Positions 3 to 34,521 of a DNA stretch of 39,697 nt are shown in pieces. Origin of the DNA: Lentilactobacillus sp. Marseille-Q4993. GTDB lineage: Bacteria > Bacillota > Bacilli > Lactobacillales > Lactobacillaceae. The DNA lies in NCBI RefSeq assembly GCF_951230165.1, contig NZ_CATNVB010000024.1:1-39697 (forward strand), in the 5' to 3' direction. How positions within the stretch are numbered: position 1 is the stretch's first letter; each line of letters opens with the position of its first letter. The notes beneath the pieces were generated by a model. That model searched no databases and was not told the DNA's origin. It saw only the letters and a list, made by a program, of their open reading frames with translations. Both the position numbers and the translations under genes were made by a program.

Positions 3-164
3 GGTTTATTGAGAGAATACATGCCTAAGGGAGTGGATATCAGTACCATCAATGATAAAGAAATTCAGGGCTATGCCACTAAGTTGAACAAGCGTCCTCG
101 TAAATGTCTAGGCTGGAAAACACCATATGAGTCATTCTTTAACGTTGCGTTGCACTTAATTTGA
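3..164 (+). CDS. IS30-family transposase, C-terminal end (partial)
   Basis: Open frame running in from the left edge and ending at TGA 162-164. It reads LLREYMPKGVDIS, then NKRPRKCLGWKTPYE, which is the typical C-terminus of IS30-family DDE transposases (the NxRPRKxLGxKTPxE motif). Only about 53 residues are inside the window, so the catalytic core is not visible and intactness cannot be judged. The frame ends a few bases before the terminator of a minus-strand leader, so the element's right end lies there. Confidence 0.85.
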   Translation, partial: GLLREYMPKGVDISTINDKEIQGYATKLNKRPRKCLGWKTPYESFFNVALHLI

Positions 165-1447: not shown

Positions 1448-1490
1448 AAAGGAAGAATCCACTTGTTTTAAGCGGATTCTTCCTTTTTTG
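1448..1490 (+). terminator. terminator after the GNAT gene
   Basis: 13-bp stem AAAGGAAGAATCC / GGATTCTTCCTTT (1448-1460 with 1474-1486), then a T-run. The right arm coincides with sequence that matches the 3' end of the nucleotidyltransferase gene at 3056 (see the remnant at 1470-1507). Confidence 0.85.
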
Positions 1491-1507
1491 AAAGTAATTA
1501 TTTTTTA
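1470..1507 (-). pseudogene. remnant 3' end of a second ANT-like nucleotidyltransferase gene
   Basis: The minus strand here reads LLSKKEESA-stop (TAA). The intact nucleotidyltransferase at 3056-3826 ends LLSKVKEESA-stop. The DNA aligns closely between about 1471-1503 and 3059-3094 with one in-frame 3-nt gap. Upstream of this the reading frame is closed (CAA in the intact gene corresponds to TAA here). It sits 25 nt beyond the anti-sigma stop codon, so it looks like the leftover end of a duplicated cassette. Confidence 0.55.
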
Positions 1508-1531
1508 ATCCCAGACCGATTAATAACTTTA

Positions 1532-2428
1532 TCAGTTCAACCCATTCTTACTCAAAGTCACACCAGCTGACGTTGCCAAAATCCAACTCTTGTTAACCAA
1601 TTTTCCCATCATCTGTGAATCTCCCGTGACAATTACACCCTTTATTTTTACTTTATTTAAATCTGAGCTAACCTTTGAGTACCTCTTCATTCTTTCATTT
1701 GAAGCTGAAAGCTCTTTTATTCCATGTCTGTATTCTGCAAAATTTCCACTCGCAGATTCACCATTCCCAGCTTCGGAAAATCCTAATTGCATAGCTTCTA
1801 CATCAATTTCGGTTTTGCTTTTATCGCTTCCAAGCCAATACCACTTCACATGAACCCCTTTTGGCATTATTTTCTTGATCTTTCTGTAACTCATTGAGCT
1901 TGTAAAGGTTACTCCAACCTCCGAAACAGCTCCTTTTAGCTTAGCTAATTTCGTAGCGTCTTCGGGTAAATTGTGACTATCAAGACTATAAAATTGGGGG
2001 ATTTTTCTCTGGGTAATTCTATCGTAAGTAGCTGCCCCTTCCGAATCAATTGATGAAAATGTGGAGAAATTAAATTCTGACTGATTCCACGAATAATTTC
2101 CTTGTAACGGTGACCAAGGGATTCGTTGTCCCTCTATGTCTTTATATCTGTGACTAACAACTTCTCCACCCATAAAATCAGAATGATCAATAAATTGATC
2201 ACTGACTTCTATGTTAGGTGATGAAACTTCATTGATTATAGTCATTTCTTGGAAGAGCTTATTGGACTGCTTTGCTGACATGGATTGAGTAACTTTATAG
2301 CCAACTGCCATCAAAATTGGGGTAAATAGCATAATTAGCATTATTGTAAAGATAATCCTTCGAATTCTAACTTTCAAAGCCATTTTTTTAAAATTTGCAT
2401 TTTGTTGCTTCATATTTTCCTTCGCCAA
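1532..2428 (-). CDS. membrane anti-sigma factor (sigma regulator N/C-domain type)
   Basis: 298 residues with a short basic cytoplasmic N-terminus, one membrane segment (about 24-43, IIFTIMLIMLFTPILMAVGY) and a ~250-residue extracellular part. Membrane-proximal and C-terminal segments match the sigma factor regulator N-/C-terminal domain pair found in Firmicutes anti-sigma proteins, for example the stretch around GVTFTSSMSYRKIKKIMPKGV. Its ATG lies inside the 3' end of the ECF sigma gene (19-nt overlap), so the two are translationally coupled. The inferred role is to hold the sigma factor inactive until an envelope signal arrives. Nucleotidyltransferase-like 3' debris lies immediately downstream. 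Confidence 0.75.
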   Translation of the reverse strand: MAKENMKQQNANFKKMALKVRIRRIIFTIMLIMLFTPILMAVGYKVTQSMSAKQSNKLFQEMTIINEVSSPNIEVSDQFIDHSDFMGGEVVSHRYKDIEGQRIPWSPLQGNYSWNQSEFNFSTFSSIDSEGAATYDRITQRKIPQFYSLDSHNLPEDATKLAKLKGAVSEVGVTFTSSMSYRKIKKIMPKGVHVKWYWLGSDKSKTEIDVEAMQLGFSEAGNGESASGNFAEYRHGIKELSASNERMKRYSKVSSDLNKVKIKGVIVTGDSQMMGKLVNKSWILATSAGVTLSKNGLN

Positions 2429-2898
2429 CCTTTTCTTACTTTTCGTTTTATTCTCATCAACCGCATTTTTATAACTCCAGGGGACACTCCGTACTCAAAA
2501 CTAAGTTCTGAAATTGTTTTTTTATTAACGTACTTTTTAATCAATAACGTCCTCTGCGCGTCCGGTAATTGCTGCAATGAGGAGGCTAAATAACTAAATA
2601 TTTCATCTTCATATGTATTAATTTCGGATTCTTGGGATTGAGGAATTAAAAATCGTTCCATGATTTCTTGGAATTTAGCTTCTCGTCGATACTGATCAAT
2701 ATACTTATGCTTAACGATTGTGTACATCAAAGGTCGTAATTCTGACTCAGTCAATATTAAATCCGATTCTAATATCTTGACGAAGGCGTCTTGTACTAAA
2801 TCCTGAGCGGTTTGAATTTCAACTCCATGACCAACTAAATAATGCAAAACTTCGTTTGAAATATTCTTTATTGATTGCTCATATTTATCAAGTTTCAT
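2410..2898 (-). CDS. ECF-type RNA polymerase sigma factor
   Basis: 162 residues. Region 2 (about 20-75) contains AQDLVQDAFVKIL and RPLMYTIVKHKYIDQYRR. Region 4 (about 105-157) has LQQLPDAQRTLLIKKY followed by the helix-turn-helix KTISELSFEYGVSPGVIKMRLMRIKRKVRKG. Length and layout fit a group IV (ECF) sigma factor. A GAGGAGGAATT ribosome binding site precedes the ATG. The gene overlaps the downstream anti-sigma gene, and its 5' region carries leader copy A with a terminator. Expression is therefore probably controlled by read-through as well as by any autoregulated promoter. No convincing AAC/CGT-type ECF promoter was identified. Confidence 0.9.
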   Translation of the reverse strand: MKLDKYEQSIKNISNEVLHYLVGHGVEIQTAQDLVQDAFVKILESDLILTESELRPLMYTIVKHKYIDQYRREAKFQEIMERFLIPQSQESEINTYEDEIFSYLASSLQQLPDAQRTLLIKKYVNKKTISELSFEYGVSPGVIKMRLMRIKRKVRKGWRRKI

Positions 2899-2946
2899 AA
2901 TTCCTCCTCTCAGTATATTAACGAACGACTTTTAAAAAAGTAACAT

Positions 2947-3058
2947 AAAAAAGAGAGAAACCTATTATATATAGGTCCCTCTCTCATTCAAAGTACACAA
3001 ATCCTCACGCCAATTCGTTAATATTTACCAAGCTTTGGTTTTGTCTATACCCATACTA
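2947..3058 (-). promoter_or_regulatory. attenuator-like leader, copy A (upstream of the ECF sigma gene)
   Basis: Minus-strand leader beginning at the nucleotidyltransferase stop codon (3058-3056) and ending in a terminator: GAGAG-GG-ACCTAT / ATAGGT-TT-CTCTC (2985-2953), then TTTTTT (2952-2947). It contains GGGTATAGACA, a small hairpin CCAA-AGC-TTGG, and an open frame ...QSLVNINELA-stop whose last codons are at 3031-3005. It aligns over most of its length with copy B at 3846-3968, including an identical 19-nt block at 2974-2992. The terminator lies ~50 nt before the sigma ATG. A regulatory role is inferred from position and conservation; no known RNA family was recognised. Confidence 0.6.
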
Positions 3059-3826
3059 AGCGGATTCTTCCTTTACTTTTGAGAGTAATTGTTTTGCAAC
3101 CTCAATAATCTCTCTATCGTTAATTGTTCCGTTCGCACTTGATCTACTGTCAATACACCTGCGAATTACTTCAGCCGAAAAACTTGGGTAGTTATTGATC
3201 ACCCAATATGCTGACCTAATCTTTGGGTATATATTACCCTTCTTCAGAAAAGCTAATGTTCGACACAGATTGAGAACCTCATTTGACGGATTGTCTGGTT
3301 GCCCCTGAAAATCAATGTCATACTTTACCGCGTTCCAGTAATCAAGGTCAGACACAGTTTCAAACACATCCTCAGGGTTAGGACCAATTAAAGCCACTCC
3401 ACACTGATTGATAACTTTCACATGAGCAATCAAATCTAAATCAAAGCCATGCATCTTCTTTATGTATTCACTGGGGCTGTCCAAATAATGTTTTAGATGA
3501 TACTTTGAAAAATGAAATTCAAAATTTGGTTTCGTCGTTATATGCTTAGCTTGATTACTTAAAATCACATGAAGTTCGAGCCCCTTTTCGGGTGATAATG
3601 ACCATAAATCTTCAAAGGTAATTTTCATTAGTTTCTTCTTCATTTCAAATGACAAAGGATCATTAACTACCGCAATAAAGTCAACATCACTATTATCGTC
3701 AAACCCGCCAAGCACGAGAGAACCATGCAGATAGATTCCAACCAAATTATCACCTAATAAGCGATTCAGTTTAGCTTTTATGTTAGTTAATAAAAATCTT
3801 AGATTAAAGGATTTCAAAATCAGCAC
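3056..3826 (-). CDS. aminoglycoside nucleotidyltransferase-like protein (ANT/AadA type, DUF4111)
   Basis: 256 residues. The nucleotidyltransferase motif GSLVLGGFDDNSDVDF (35-50) supplies Gly-Ser and the metal-binding Asp47 and Asp49. The remainder, including CRTLAFLKKGNIYPKIRSAYW, fits the alpha-helical C-terminal domain of the AadA/ANT(3'')/ANT(9) group. Such enzymes adenylylate streptomycin or spectinomycin, but chromosomal lactobacillar members often have unproven substrates. A GTG at 3826-3824 is the upstream start, close behind AAGGGGCAGG; a slightly shorter protein is possible. It is preceded by leader copy B and followed by leader copy A, in the same orientation. A fragment of a second copy remains at 1470-1507. 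Confidence 0.8.
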   Translation of the reverse strand: MLILKSFNLRFLLTNIKAKLNRLLGDNLVGIYLHGSLVLGGFDDNSDVDFIAVVNDPLSFEMKKKLMKITFEDLWSLSPEKGLELHVILSNQAKHITTKPNFEFHFSKYHLKHYLDSPSEYIKKMHGFDLDLIAHVKVINQCGVALIGPNPEDVFETVSDLDYWNAVKYDIDFQGQPDNPSNEVLNLCRTLAFLKKGNIYPKIRSAYWVINNYPSFSAEVIRRCIDSRSSANGTINDREIIEVAKQLLSKVKEESA

Positions 3827-3845
3827 CTGCCCCTTCTATCTGTTA

Positions 3846-3968
3846 AAGAAAAAGAAAGCAACCCTACAAGGGTCCCTCTCTCATTCAAACACGGTCAAAT
3901 TAACGTCACATTCACGCCAACTCGCCAATATTTACCAAACTTTGACTCTGTCTATACCCACATTATAC
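3846..3968 (-). promoter_or_regulatory. attenuator-like leader, copy B (upstream of the nucleotidyltransferase gene)
   Basis: Minus-strand element starting at TATAAT (3967-3962), then GGGTATAGACA, a hairpin TCAA-AGT-TTGG, an open frame ending ...QSLVNIGELA-stop (last nine codons 3938-3912), and a terminator GAGAG-GG-ACCCT / AGGGT-TG-CTTTC (3880-3854) followed by a T-rich tail. Relative to copy A the terminator stem has changed on both sides while still pairing, and the short frame keeps its reading with mostly third-position changes. The gene's GTG start is about 20 nt beyond the tail. This looks like ribosome- or ligand-controlled attenuation of a resistance-type gene. An antiterminator pairing was not identified. 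Confidence 0.6.
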
Positions 3969-4130
3969 GGGATAGCTACTTATATTGATAGGTAATTATA
4001 ACTTAATTAGACAATGAGATTAGGGCTTTCTAGAAAATGAAATTTCTCTAGTTATCATTTTACTAAGAAATGCTTAACTCCACCCCCTCAAAACCAATAA
4101 ATGATAAACTAATTTTAGGAGGACTTACTC
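3969..4130. other. intergenic stretch before the secreted protein at 4131
   Basis: AT-rich spacer between the minus-strand leader promoter and the plus-strand gene. A modest inverted repeat (CTAGA...TCTAG, about 4030-4052) is present. No convincing plus-strand promoter was found, apart from a GATAAACT -10-like string close to the AGGAGG ribosome binding site. Confidence 0.3.
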
Positions 4131-4934
4131 ATGAAATTTCTTAAATATCTAACAATAAGTGGCCTAGCCGTTACTGGGTTAGCCATCACATCAATTGGGA
4201 ACCCTGCGACGGTTCAAGCAAAAACATCGAAATCAGCATATAAAATTGCTAATAAAGCTTCAATCAAAGAAACCTATTTCCACATCCCTACCAGTAAGAA
4301 AAACATCTATATGTGGAATTCCAACCACACCAAAAAACTACTAAACGTTAAAGATTACCCTAACGCAAATTGGTACAGTTATAGGAAGTACACCTTATCA
4401 AAAAATAATAAAAAATCCGTTTATTATCAGGTCACAGGACATAACCCAAACCGTCACACTACTGAAACTGGGTTGATTTGGCACGGTTATTTGAAAACTG
4501 GTTATAACAAGAACTGGAAGGTCTGGAACGATCTCCAACCTGGCCAATTTGCAAACGATCAGGACTACTACGACTACATTCAACAGTCACCATCCCAAAA
4601 ATTTACCAAAGCTGTTTTAAAGCTATTTCCTAATACCCAACTTTCAAAAGAATTGTCCTCAGATTTGATTTACGAATATTACGAGAAGGACTGGACGGAC
4701 GTCATCAAGCTACCAGGTGCCTCAAAGTATTTTGATAAAATGCTCTTTAAGGATAAAGTTACCGAAACCCAACGACTCGAGCTGGTAAAACAGGCGCTTG
4801 ATAAAGCCGGTTACGATCAAACCAAACGTGATAGCCTATCAGACTATAAAATTGGTGTCTTTTACTCAAAGTACCCAGATTGGTTAGCAATCGATCAATA
4901 CCCAGGAATCGTCCTAGCAAAGCCAAAGAACTAA
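4131..4934 (+). CDS. secreted protein with SH3-like Lactobacillus surface module, function unknown
   Basis: 267 residues with a Sec signal peptide and probable cleavage after TVQA (residue 30). Residues ~50-125 (YMWNSNHTKKLL, the YSYRKYTLSKNN region, KKSVYYQVTGHN, GLIWHGYLKTGYN) form a beta-rich module of a kind repeated in many lactobacillar exported proteins. A similar stretch occurs in the protease at 34777. The C-terminal half is alpha-helical and lacks recognisable catalytic motifs or an LPxTG anchor, so the protein is probably released or loosely wall-bound. The start has TAGGAGGA 9 nt upstream. It ends at a strong bidirectional terminator. Confidence 0.7.
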   Translation: MKFLKYLTISGLAVTGLAITSIGNPATVQAKTSKSAYKIANKASIKETYFHIPTSKKNIYMWNSNHTKKLLNVKDYPNANWYSYRKYTLSKNNKKSVYYQVTGHNPNRHTTETGLIWHGYLKTGYNKNWKVWNDLQPGQFANDQDYYDYIQQSPSQKFTKAVLKLFPNTQLSKELSSDLIYEYYEKDWTDVIKLPGASKYFDKMLFKDKVTETQRLELVKQALDKAGYDQTKRDSLSDYKIGVFYSKYPDWLAIDQYPGIVLAKPKN

Positions 4935-33284: not shown

Positions 33285-33557
33285 CGATTAAATACTATGA
33301 AGAGAACCACGAGTTATCATTTGTGCTCAGAGAGATTCCGTTTGGTGAGAGGAACCCACATTTTTAACCCGTTATCATCTCCGAGTTATTCGATGAATTT
33401 TTAGTAGTCGAATTGGTGTCCACCCATTATTGTGGCAGCGTATCGCTTCGGCCGTACGTCTGAGGTAGTTCTAGTGATGGAACTACGAAAATAGGTGGTA
33501 ACCCGTTTATTAAACGTCCTATATGGTACATAAGTACGGTTAGGGCGTTTTTTGGTT
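33285..33557 (+). promoter_or_regulatory. T-box riboswitch leader, probable Ile specificity
   Basis: Stem I: GAAGAG near 33300 and the distal AGAGAGATTCCGTTTGGTG with GAGAGGAA. The T-box sequence AGGTGGTAACCCG is at 33493-33505, preceded by the stem-III hairpin GTAGTTC...GGAACTAC (33464-33486). Folding stem I by eye (ACG/CGT, then GAG/CTC) leaves TATCAT in the specifier loop. ATC (33374-33376) followed by A gives Ile as the best fit, with Val or Tyr registers less likely. It controls the hydratase-family gene at 33706 by tRNA-dependent antitermination. Confidence 0.85.
33514..33557 (+). terminator. T-box terminator hairpin
   Basis: ACGTCCTA with TAGGGCGT, inner GTAC-ATAA-GTAC, then TTTTTT. 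The 5' arm follows directly after the T-box sequence, which would pair into the competing antiterminator. Confidence 0.88.
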
Positions 33558-33705: not shown

Positions 33706-34521
33706 ATGGATACACAATTAACAGTAACAAAGAATGCTTTATCAGAAACTCAACGCAAATTTGCTAAGGAATTATACAACTCATACGAAACCCATCAAGC
33801 GTTAGTTGAGGATAACTTCAATGGCGTAGTTACCAATGAAGATGATGCTTACGCAGTGCAGTCAATGGTGACTGAAATGAAGGGCGAAGCTGTTGGAGGC
33901 TACAAAGTTTCCCTTACTAGCAAACAGACTCAAGATATGTTTGATTCTGACTCCCCACTTTACGGAGCTCAAGTTACATCTCACTTTATGCAATCACCGG
34001 TTGAACTCCATCAGGCCGAACTAATGGAGCCGCTAGCTGAGGTGGAAATGTTATTCACAGTAACTGAGGACGTATCTTCATCAGATTCACTGGAAGATTT
34101 GATGCACAAAACATTAGTTGCACCAGCAGTTGAAGTACCCGACTCACGTTTCAGCGATTGGTTCCCTAGTTTATCTAAATACATGGTTATGTCGGATTCA
34201 GCGGTTGGGGGCTTTGTGACTTACGGTGAAGAAGTTAGAACTGACGACTTATTTGATACAGTTGATGATGTTGCTCATGTTAACTGTGAGCTATTCCACG
34301 ATGGTAAAAAGTTAAAGGATGGTCAATCGTCAGAAGTTTTAGGAAACCCACTAAAATCACTCCACTGGCTAGTTGAAAAACTCGAAGAGCAAGGGACCCC
34401 ACTTCAAAAGGGGCAGCGGGTTTCAAGCGGAACATTCTTACTGCCAGAATCATTAACCACTGGTAGATGGAAGGCCACATTTGATAAGGGGCTCGGCTCT
34501 GTTTTCTTACACGTAAAATAA
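33706..34521 (+). CDS. 2-keto-4-pentenoate hydratase family protein
   Basis: 271 residues of the MhpD / fumarylacetoacetase-related fold. Blocks seen are VGGYKVSLTSKQTQDMFDSDSPLYGAQ, LMEPLAEVEMLFTV (the ExE metal ligands), VAPAVEVPDSRFSDW with a further Glu, and LGNPLKSLHWLVEKLEEQG. These enzymes hydrate or decarboxylate 2-oxo acids using Mg2+ or Mn2+. No aromatic catabolism genes are nearby, so the physiological substrate is probably another oxo acid. The ATG follows AGGAGG with 8-nt spacing. The T-box leader ties its expression to uncharged tRNA, most likely tRNA-Ile. Confidence 0.8.
   Translation: MDTQLTVTKNALSETQRKFAKELYNSYETHQALVEDNFNGVVTNEDDAYAVQSMVTEMKGEAVGGYKVSLTSKQTQDMFDSDSPLYGAQVTSHFMQSPVELHQAELMEPLAEVEMLFTVTEDVSSSDSLEDLMHKTLVAPAVEVPDSRFSDWFPSLSKYMVMSDSAVGGFVTYGEEVRTDDLFDTVDDVAHVNCELFHDGKKLKDGQSSEVLGNPLKSLHWLVEKLEEQGTPLQKGQRVSSGTFLLPESLTTGRWKATFDKGLGSVFLHVK

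Follow-up and report, generated by a model that had tools for sequence, protein, structure and literature searches.

In Lentilactobacillus sp. Marseille-Q4993, a stretch of 39,697 nucleotides (contig NZ_CATNVB010000024.1; this whole stretch is called the window here), part of a genome of 2.28 Mb in 75 contigs, carries a small operon for an extracytoplasmic function (ECF) sigma factor and its predicted anti-sigma factor. The operon is enclosed by a gene resembling those of aminoglycoside nucleotidyltransferases (ANT) on one side and by apparent remnants of such a gene on the other. We consider it probable, on the evidence of the sequence, that a unit of leader, ANT-like gene and terminator was duplicated in tandem, and that the body of the second ANT copy was then replaced by a self-regulated sigma module. 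All of these elements lie on the minus strand, in the order leader B, ANT-like gene (3826-3056), leader A, sigma gene (2898-2410), anti-sigma gene (to 1532) and a tail matching the ANT 3′ end; leader A begins immediately 3′ of the ANT stop codon. An initial annotation of the window had described this same order, and our analysis confirms it. The features of the locus are as follows.

3850-3967, minus strand: leader B, preceding the ANT-like gene; TATAAT box (3967-3962), presumed transcribed leader, then a hairpin (3882-3852) and a T-rich stretch; fold z-score -4.8
3056-3826, minus strand: intact ANT-like nucleotidyltransferase gene; 256 amino acids, NTP_transf_2 and AadA_C domains
3057-3095, minus strand: tail 1, the ANT 3′ end, coding for the C-terminal helix region and KEESA
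2948-3054, minus strand: leader A, a diverged second leader copy without TATAAT box; 15-pair hairpin (2985-2951) with a T-run; fold z-score -4.5
2920-2944, minus strand: predicted ECF-type promoter of the sigma operon, GTTAC-N16-CGTT
2410-2898, minus strand: ECF sigma factor gene; 162 amino acids, regions 2 and 4
1532-2428, minus strand: anti-sigma gene; Sigma_reg_N and Sigma_reg_C domains, C-terminal end unlike that of Lentilactobacillus homologs
1511-1530, minus strand: probable mid-ANT relic of the second copy; 17 of 20 bases match ANT 3418-3399
1469-1504, minus strand: tail 2, read as the 3′ end relic of the second ANT copy; interrupted by an in-frame stop codon and a 3-base gap
1448-1486, minus strand: perfect 17-bp hairpin, presumed terminator, between the convergent anti-sigma and acetyltransferase (934-1425) genes

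Leader copies and probable ANT remnants

The initial annotation took leader A for a second copy of leader B, and the alignment of the two bears this out: 87 of 101 aligned bases are identical, with 16 further gap columns, and the local alignment score of 79 was reached by none of 2000 dinucleotide shuffles (maximum 30). By BLAST, the identity is 73% across the span (E 1.4e-10). The match starts at TGGGTATAGAC, directly past the TATAAT box of leader B, and ceases at the T-run of the hairpin; at the position of that box, leader A has none. The identical blocks measure 19, 12, 12 and 9 bases. Taken together, the four longest runs were matched in 0.5% of permutations; the longest one by itself was matched in 6%, which is not significant. 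Upstream of the hairpin, the predicted fold differs between the two leaders. The hairpin of leader A is best read as a terminator for the ANT-like gene and an insulator upstream of the sigma promoter.

Several other identities for the leader were considered and set aside. A known riboswitch or T-box was rejected on the Rfam search, in which neither leader matched any family, with E allowed up to 5. The sole gathering-level Rfam match in the window is a T-box (RF00230, 97.9 bits) at 33288-33524 on the plus strand, preceding an open reading frame at 33706-34521. A genome-wide repeat was also rejected, since the genome has two strong matches only, the seven others having E of at least 0.13; two of these seven (in L004 and L005) sit on contigs carrying transposase genes, which we take to be IS110-like. 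Finally, a sigma-70-like promoter match (TTGAAT-16-TATAAT, 10/12; 2991-2964, minus strand) lies inside the leader A hairpin and has no counterpart in leader B. Basal transcription of the sigma gene could start from it, but we rejected it as a housekeeping promoter because promoter-like sites (16, against a shuffle mean of 13.6) are not above chance.

At the other end of the operon, the tail behind the anti-sigma gene had been recognized as a match to the ANT 3′ end, and this match is far better than expected for shuffled sequence. With a single gap of 3 bases, tail 2 (1504-1469) and tail 1 (3095-3057) agree at 34 of 36 aligned positions; their score of 53 compares with a maximum of 31 in 2000 shuffles, none of which reached it. 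The 17-base core of the tail, AAGGAAGAATCCGCTTA, has exactly two copies in the 2.28 Mb genome, at the two tails; the one other match, with two mismatches, falls in the other arm of the 1486-1448 hairpin. The tail can be assigned to an ANT origin because most of 27 aligned homologs have the C-terminal helix for which the 3′ region of ANT codes (two of 29 sequences were dropped from the alignment). Tail 2 also contains the left arm of the 17-bp hairpin (z-score -7.5), a feature missed by the initial annotation and presumed to be a terminator for the anti-sigma transcript. A consensus terminator scan did not list it, because the T-run behind it is short.

A second, previously unnoticed ANT fragment is probable between the anti-sigma gene and the tail. 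When the ANT body was compared with the sigma region, the best match fell at the anti-sigma end (1560-1511; 51 nt, 72.5%, E 0.011), six bases from the tail, and in its core (1530-1511) 17 of 20 bases are identical to ANT nt 409-428. The strength of the match depends on the bases counted. For the 24-base spacer between anti-sigma gene and tail, an equally good match to ANT arose once in 3000 shuffles and four times in 3000 real segments; for a 38-base stretch the counts were 10 and 15 of 3000, and for a 63-base stretch that includes anti-sigma codons they were 0 of 3000 in both. With only the 39 bases outside anti-sigma descent, 104 of 20,000 real segments score as well. The relic scores 14 against the forward ANT sequence and 9 against ANT reverse-complemented or reversed. 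Translated in frame 2, the stretch reads KVINRSGIKK-stop-LLSKKEESA-stop, to be compared with KVINQCG and KQLLSKVKEESA in the intact protein, and the two ANT-like blocks (1530-1511 and 1504-1469) are colinear and share one reading frame, with about 300 ANT bases missing between them.

The sigma operon and its predicted promoter

The sigma protein scores just above the Pfam gathering thresholds for Sigma70_r2 (24.4 against 24) and Sigma70_r4_2 (29 against 25.7), and more clearly above the NCBIfam cut-off for sigma70-ECF (57.6 against 42.9). The anti-sigma gene overlaps the sigma gene, carries Sigma_reg_N and Sigma_reg_C, and is the same neighbour in relatives; its product is predicted to be the cognate regulator of the adjacent sigma factor. 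The listed anti-sigma reading frame starts at TTG 2428, but translation more likely begins at the ATG at 2413. The sigma protein has the longest branch (2.19, against a median end branch of 0.15) in a tree of 21 sequences, in which its placement is unsure. This may reflect relaxed or changed constraint after a move, or simply that a close relative is missing. The protein deviates at residues common or nearly common to 12 aligned homologs, for example around PP and RPYMY, and the promoter motif is unchanged.

The anti-sigma protein was aligned in 21 rows: the window, nine Lentilactobacillus and one Bombilactobacillus (L143-L152), nine Levilactobacillus and one Lactiplantibacillus. The ten L143-L152 rows have an end of the [R/K]VPY type, with RVPY in all ten and further residues behind it, which vary in L145 and L147. 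The window protein ends KNGLN where these rows continue with RVPY; from about the place where the ANT-like blocks begin, it no longer follows the C-terminal end of its nearer kin. Taken together, the anti-sigma end and the ANT relics place a 3′ junction near 1546.

The sequence GTTAC-N16-CGTT (2944-2920), overlooked by the initial annotation, lies just past the T-run of leader A and 21 bases before the sigma start codon. Inspected by eye, GTTAC...CGTT stands at the same place in all 12 Lactobacillaceae rows and is not seen there in four distant order-level rows; a form with a T before GTTAC is confined to the window locus, to L015 and to one stray site in L023. The strict motif precedes the sigma gene in 18 of 20 named loci (the other two read GTGAC by eye), compared with a chance rate of 22 in 40,000 mononucleotide shuffles. 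Of 24 genus genomes, 9 have a single copy of a stricter form, in every case before sigma, which corresponds to 9 of the 11 genomes with the sigma gene and none of the 13 without it (Fisher 4e-5). In the strain's own genome, no further site of this stricter form was found, and a wider sigma regulon was rejected there: the relaxed pattern gave 9 hits, against 17 for the reversed control. According to passages of a review (PMC8103513), ECF promoters usually have AAC and CGT boxes and positive autoregulation is usual. The sigma promoter conserves CGTT and the spacing; its -35 element, however, reads GTTAC rather than AAC, so that this half deviates from the box given there. The conserved motif fits the usual self-regulated ECF operon, and we predict that the operon is controlled in this way.

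This promoter also bears on the claim, made in the initial annotation, that the sigma module took over the leader. That claim is not supported: leader A has no TATAAT box, and the operon's own conserved promoter lies beyond the 15-pair hairpin of leader A.

Distribution of the leader, the ANT-like gene and the operon

The ANT-like protein resembles AadA/ANT(9)-type aminoglycoside nucleotidyltransferases in having both NTP_transf_2 and AadA_C (Pfam), and its best NCBIfam match is ANT(9) (E 3.7e-22). It differs from these enzymes in falling far below every curated NCBIfam cut-off: none of the 11 matching models is reached (best 78.8 against 340), so we call it only ANT-like, a putative resistance-type enzyme. 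The gene is the single match in its own genome. Homologs occur in 43 of 397 family genomes (its own included) and in 5 of 24 genus genomes; those in the 42 other family genomes are at most 44% identical, apart from one 125-residue match at 49%. We saw no tandem ANT pair in the 397 genomes, two matches in G198 being fragments on opposite strands, and found no close relative in a contig collection (genome_contigs). Searched against plasmids, the ANT and sigma proteins gave only matches below 60% identity (4447 and 12 records).

The leader is similarly restricted. In a search of the 397 family genomes with leader model R1, only this locus scored strongly (163 and 147 bits; next best 35). At E up to 1, the model matched 48 other genomes, the best at 1.1e-4 (G222) and the rest at 0.0065 or more. 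From this search, run with stricter filters that lose weak matches, and from inspection of four weak alignments, we found no convincing leader copy in the 396 other genomes. Among the weak matches rejected, L099 falls at the end of a gene (presumably glycosyltransferase-like) and the hairpin behind it, L104 lies inside one long gene (which we take to be transporter-like) and L100 runs from the end of one gene into the beginning of the following one. Nor was a leader present within 500 bases (less at contig ends) upstream of 29 ANT homologs, the loci that were returned from the 42 other genomes with an ANT match; the best score there, 23, does not reach the 29 attained by the highest of 300 shuffles made from one such stretch. 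The leader core pattern had no exact match in viral contigs, and searches in plasmids gave six and one short matches.

The sigma operon, by comparison, has relatives in Lentilactobacillus, Levilactobacillus, Bombilactobacillus and Lactiplantibacillus, with which it shares a sigma factor of about 160 residues followed by an anti-sigma with Sigma_reg_N/C (the domains being tested in the window protein only) and GTTAC-N16-CGTT 21-27 bases before the start codon. It is unlike them in its position between an ANT gene and an ANT relic, in its altered anti-sigma end and in its divergent sigma. Around the operon, the search for ANT gene, leader and tail covered 12 stretches of some 20 kb each, together with 20 named loci extended by 3 kb on either side. 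These come from about 23 distinct genomes, nine of which are in both sets. Neither an ANT gene nor this leader was found, and the tail gave one 15-base match, attributable to chance. The operon therefore occurs in relatives without the tail and without an ANT neighbour. The pattern that would have spoken against the initial annotation, operons with the same tail but never beside an ANT gene, did not appear, and the match between the two tails in the window is not at the level of shuffled sequence. Among the 12 relatives, the operon stands, by eye, in several unrelated neighbourhoods, which makes a relocation plausible. As judged by titles and opening lines of abstracts, no dedicated study was found of these ECF factors in Lentilactobacillus and its relatives; ECF factors are mentioned in two Lactobacillus papers. 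Nothing at that level describes a replacement of this kind with a shared leader.

Proposed history of the locus

In the history that we favour, the duplicated unit would have comprised the leader, the ANT-like gene and a terminator whose left arm overlaps the gene end. With the duplication junction directly after the first ANT stop codon, the first copy would have lost the right arm of its terminator and the second would have lacked a promoter box. Illegitimate recombination would then have exchanged most of the second ANT for a complete module of ECF promoter, sigma and anti-sigma, joined on the left at about 2948, the end of the leader A T-run, and on the right at about 1546, within the last anti-sigma codons. 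Leader A, a short piece from the middle of the gene, its 3′ end and the terminator hairpin would be all that survives of the second copy. In the present locus, the leader B promoter would drive the ANT-like gene behind the leader hairpin, the hairpin of leader A would stop ANT transcripts, the sigma factor, once freed by its anti-sigma, would start its own operon from GTTAC-N16-CGTT, and the inherited ANT hairpin would terminate the resulting transcript. Duplication and replacement needs the fewest steps to explain leader A, the two ANT relics, the hairpin inherited from ANT and the change at the anti-sigma end. The rearrangement itself has good sequence support and the expression logic is a prediction. 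Of the proposal that a cassette was duplicated and then captured, a second leader-ANT-terminator unit with most of its ANT body replaced is supported (by the leader, the tail, the mid-ANT relic and the anti-sigma end), and the regulatory capture is not.

Several observations weigh against this history. The search of the family genomes turned up no relative that carries two ANT copies or the leader, so the duplicated ancestor is one that we infer. The leaders differ more than the tails do, which is not a necessary outcome of a single duplication, and there is no recognisable ANT body between leader A and the sigma promoter. Taken alone, the mid-gene relic is only modestly significant (about 0.5%), and the 51-nt match overlaps in part bases of anti-sigma descent. 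The nine Levilactobacillus rows and the Lactiplantibacillus row of the anti-sigma alignment end in the same alignment column as the window protein, though in different residues; an early end is therefore not unique and is a loss relative to the nearer kin only. In the genus promoter search, the reversed-pattern control gave 5 hits against 9, and the weight of that search therefore rests on the position of the motif and not on its number. Lastly, in G013 (L120) the sigma operon is divergent from a gene for a 39-43% relative of the protein encoded at 4131-4934 in the window, which would fit an older sigma position beside which ANT was inserted later.

This last observation belongs to an account in which the sigma operon was resident first, with a leader of its own, and the leader-ANT unit was inserted beside it by recombination between leaders. 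We regard this as improbable: apart from the chance tail match, none of the 32 sigma stretches from relatives has this leader or this tail, and the ANT-type 3′ end and mid-gene fragment behind the anti-sigma gene would be left unexplained. The G013 neighbour is itself weak evidence, because the secreted-looking 4131-4934 (plus strand) protein, which has no Pfam match, belongs to a family with 1-19 matches in every one of the 24 genus genomes and ten in this one; with so many paralogs, we rejected it as a synteny marker. Insertion of the module by a mobile element at the end of a single ANT gene, the 36-base tails being a target-site duplication, is very unlikely. The tails are direct repeats flanking leader A, sigma and anti-sigma, and there is a transposase-like end at the contig edge; against this, the stretch from one tail to the other contains no transposase gene (no search for terminal inverted repeats was made), leader A and the mid-gene relic would be unexplained, and the homology of the leaders disfavours it. 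The transposase-like end (9-164, plus strand), which we take to be of IS30 type, is about 1.3 kb from the rearranged locus. The base composition of the ANT, sigma and anti-sigma genes (34-37% GC, window 39%) is not distinctive.

It is also unlikely, on present evidence, that leader A still acts as a signal-responsive attenuator through which the sigma operon is switched by the same signal as the ANT-like gene. The long identical blocks and the stable hairpin (z-score -4.5) suggest that more than a relic terminator has been kept; however, the operon has its own conserved promoter downstream, the TATAAT box is missing, the fold upstream of the hairpin is unlike that of leader B, and the longest identical run is not significant by itself. 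Resistance genes can be controlled by transcription attenuators, such as that of Bacillus subtilis vmlR (PMC9226507), and the window leader is like these in arrangement, with a terminator-type hairpin between promoter and gene. It is unlike them in having, by eye, no recognisable leader peptide with ribosome site, and no Rfam match. A weaker form, in which leader A passes some ANT transcripts under a signal, is conceivable because the leader blocks are well kept. In a further reading, the leader would be an undescribed attenuator whose duplication brought a resistance-type gene and an ECF operon under one signal; the sigma operon would then be governed by its own feedback promoter and also by read-through gated by leader A, a combination to which we likewise give little credence.

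In summary, duplication followed by replacement would make this locus a readable case of operon relocation, in which a module moved together with its promoter, had its final codons altered and acquired the terminator of the displaced gene. It also illustrates that a shared leader beside an operon does not by itself imply common control. For the lactobacilli more widely, GTTAC-N16-CGTT offers a testable promoter for a group of ECF sigma factors.

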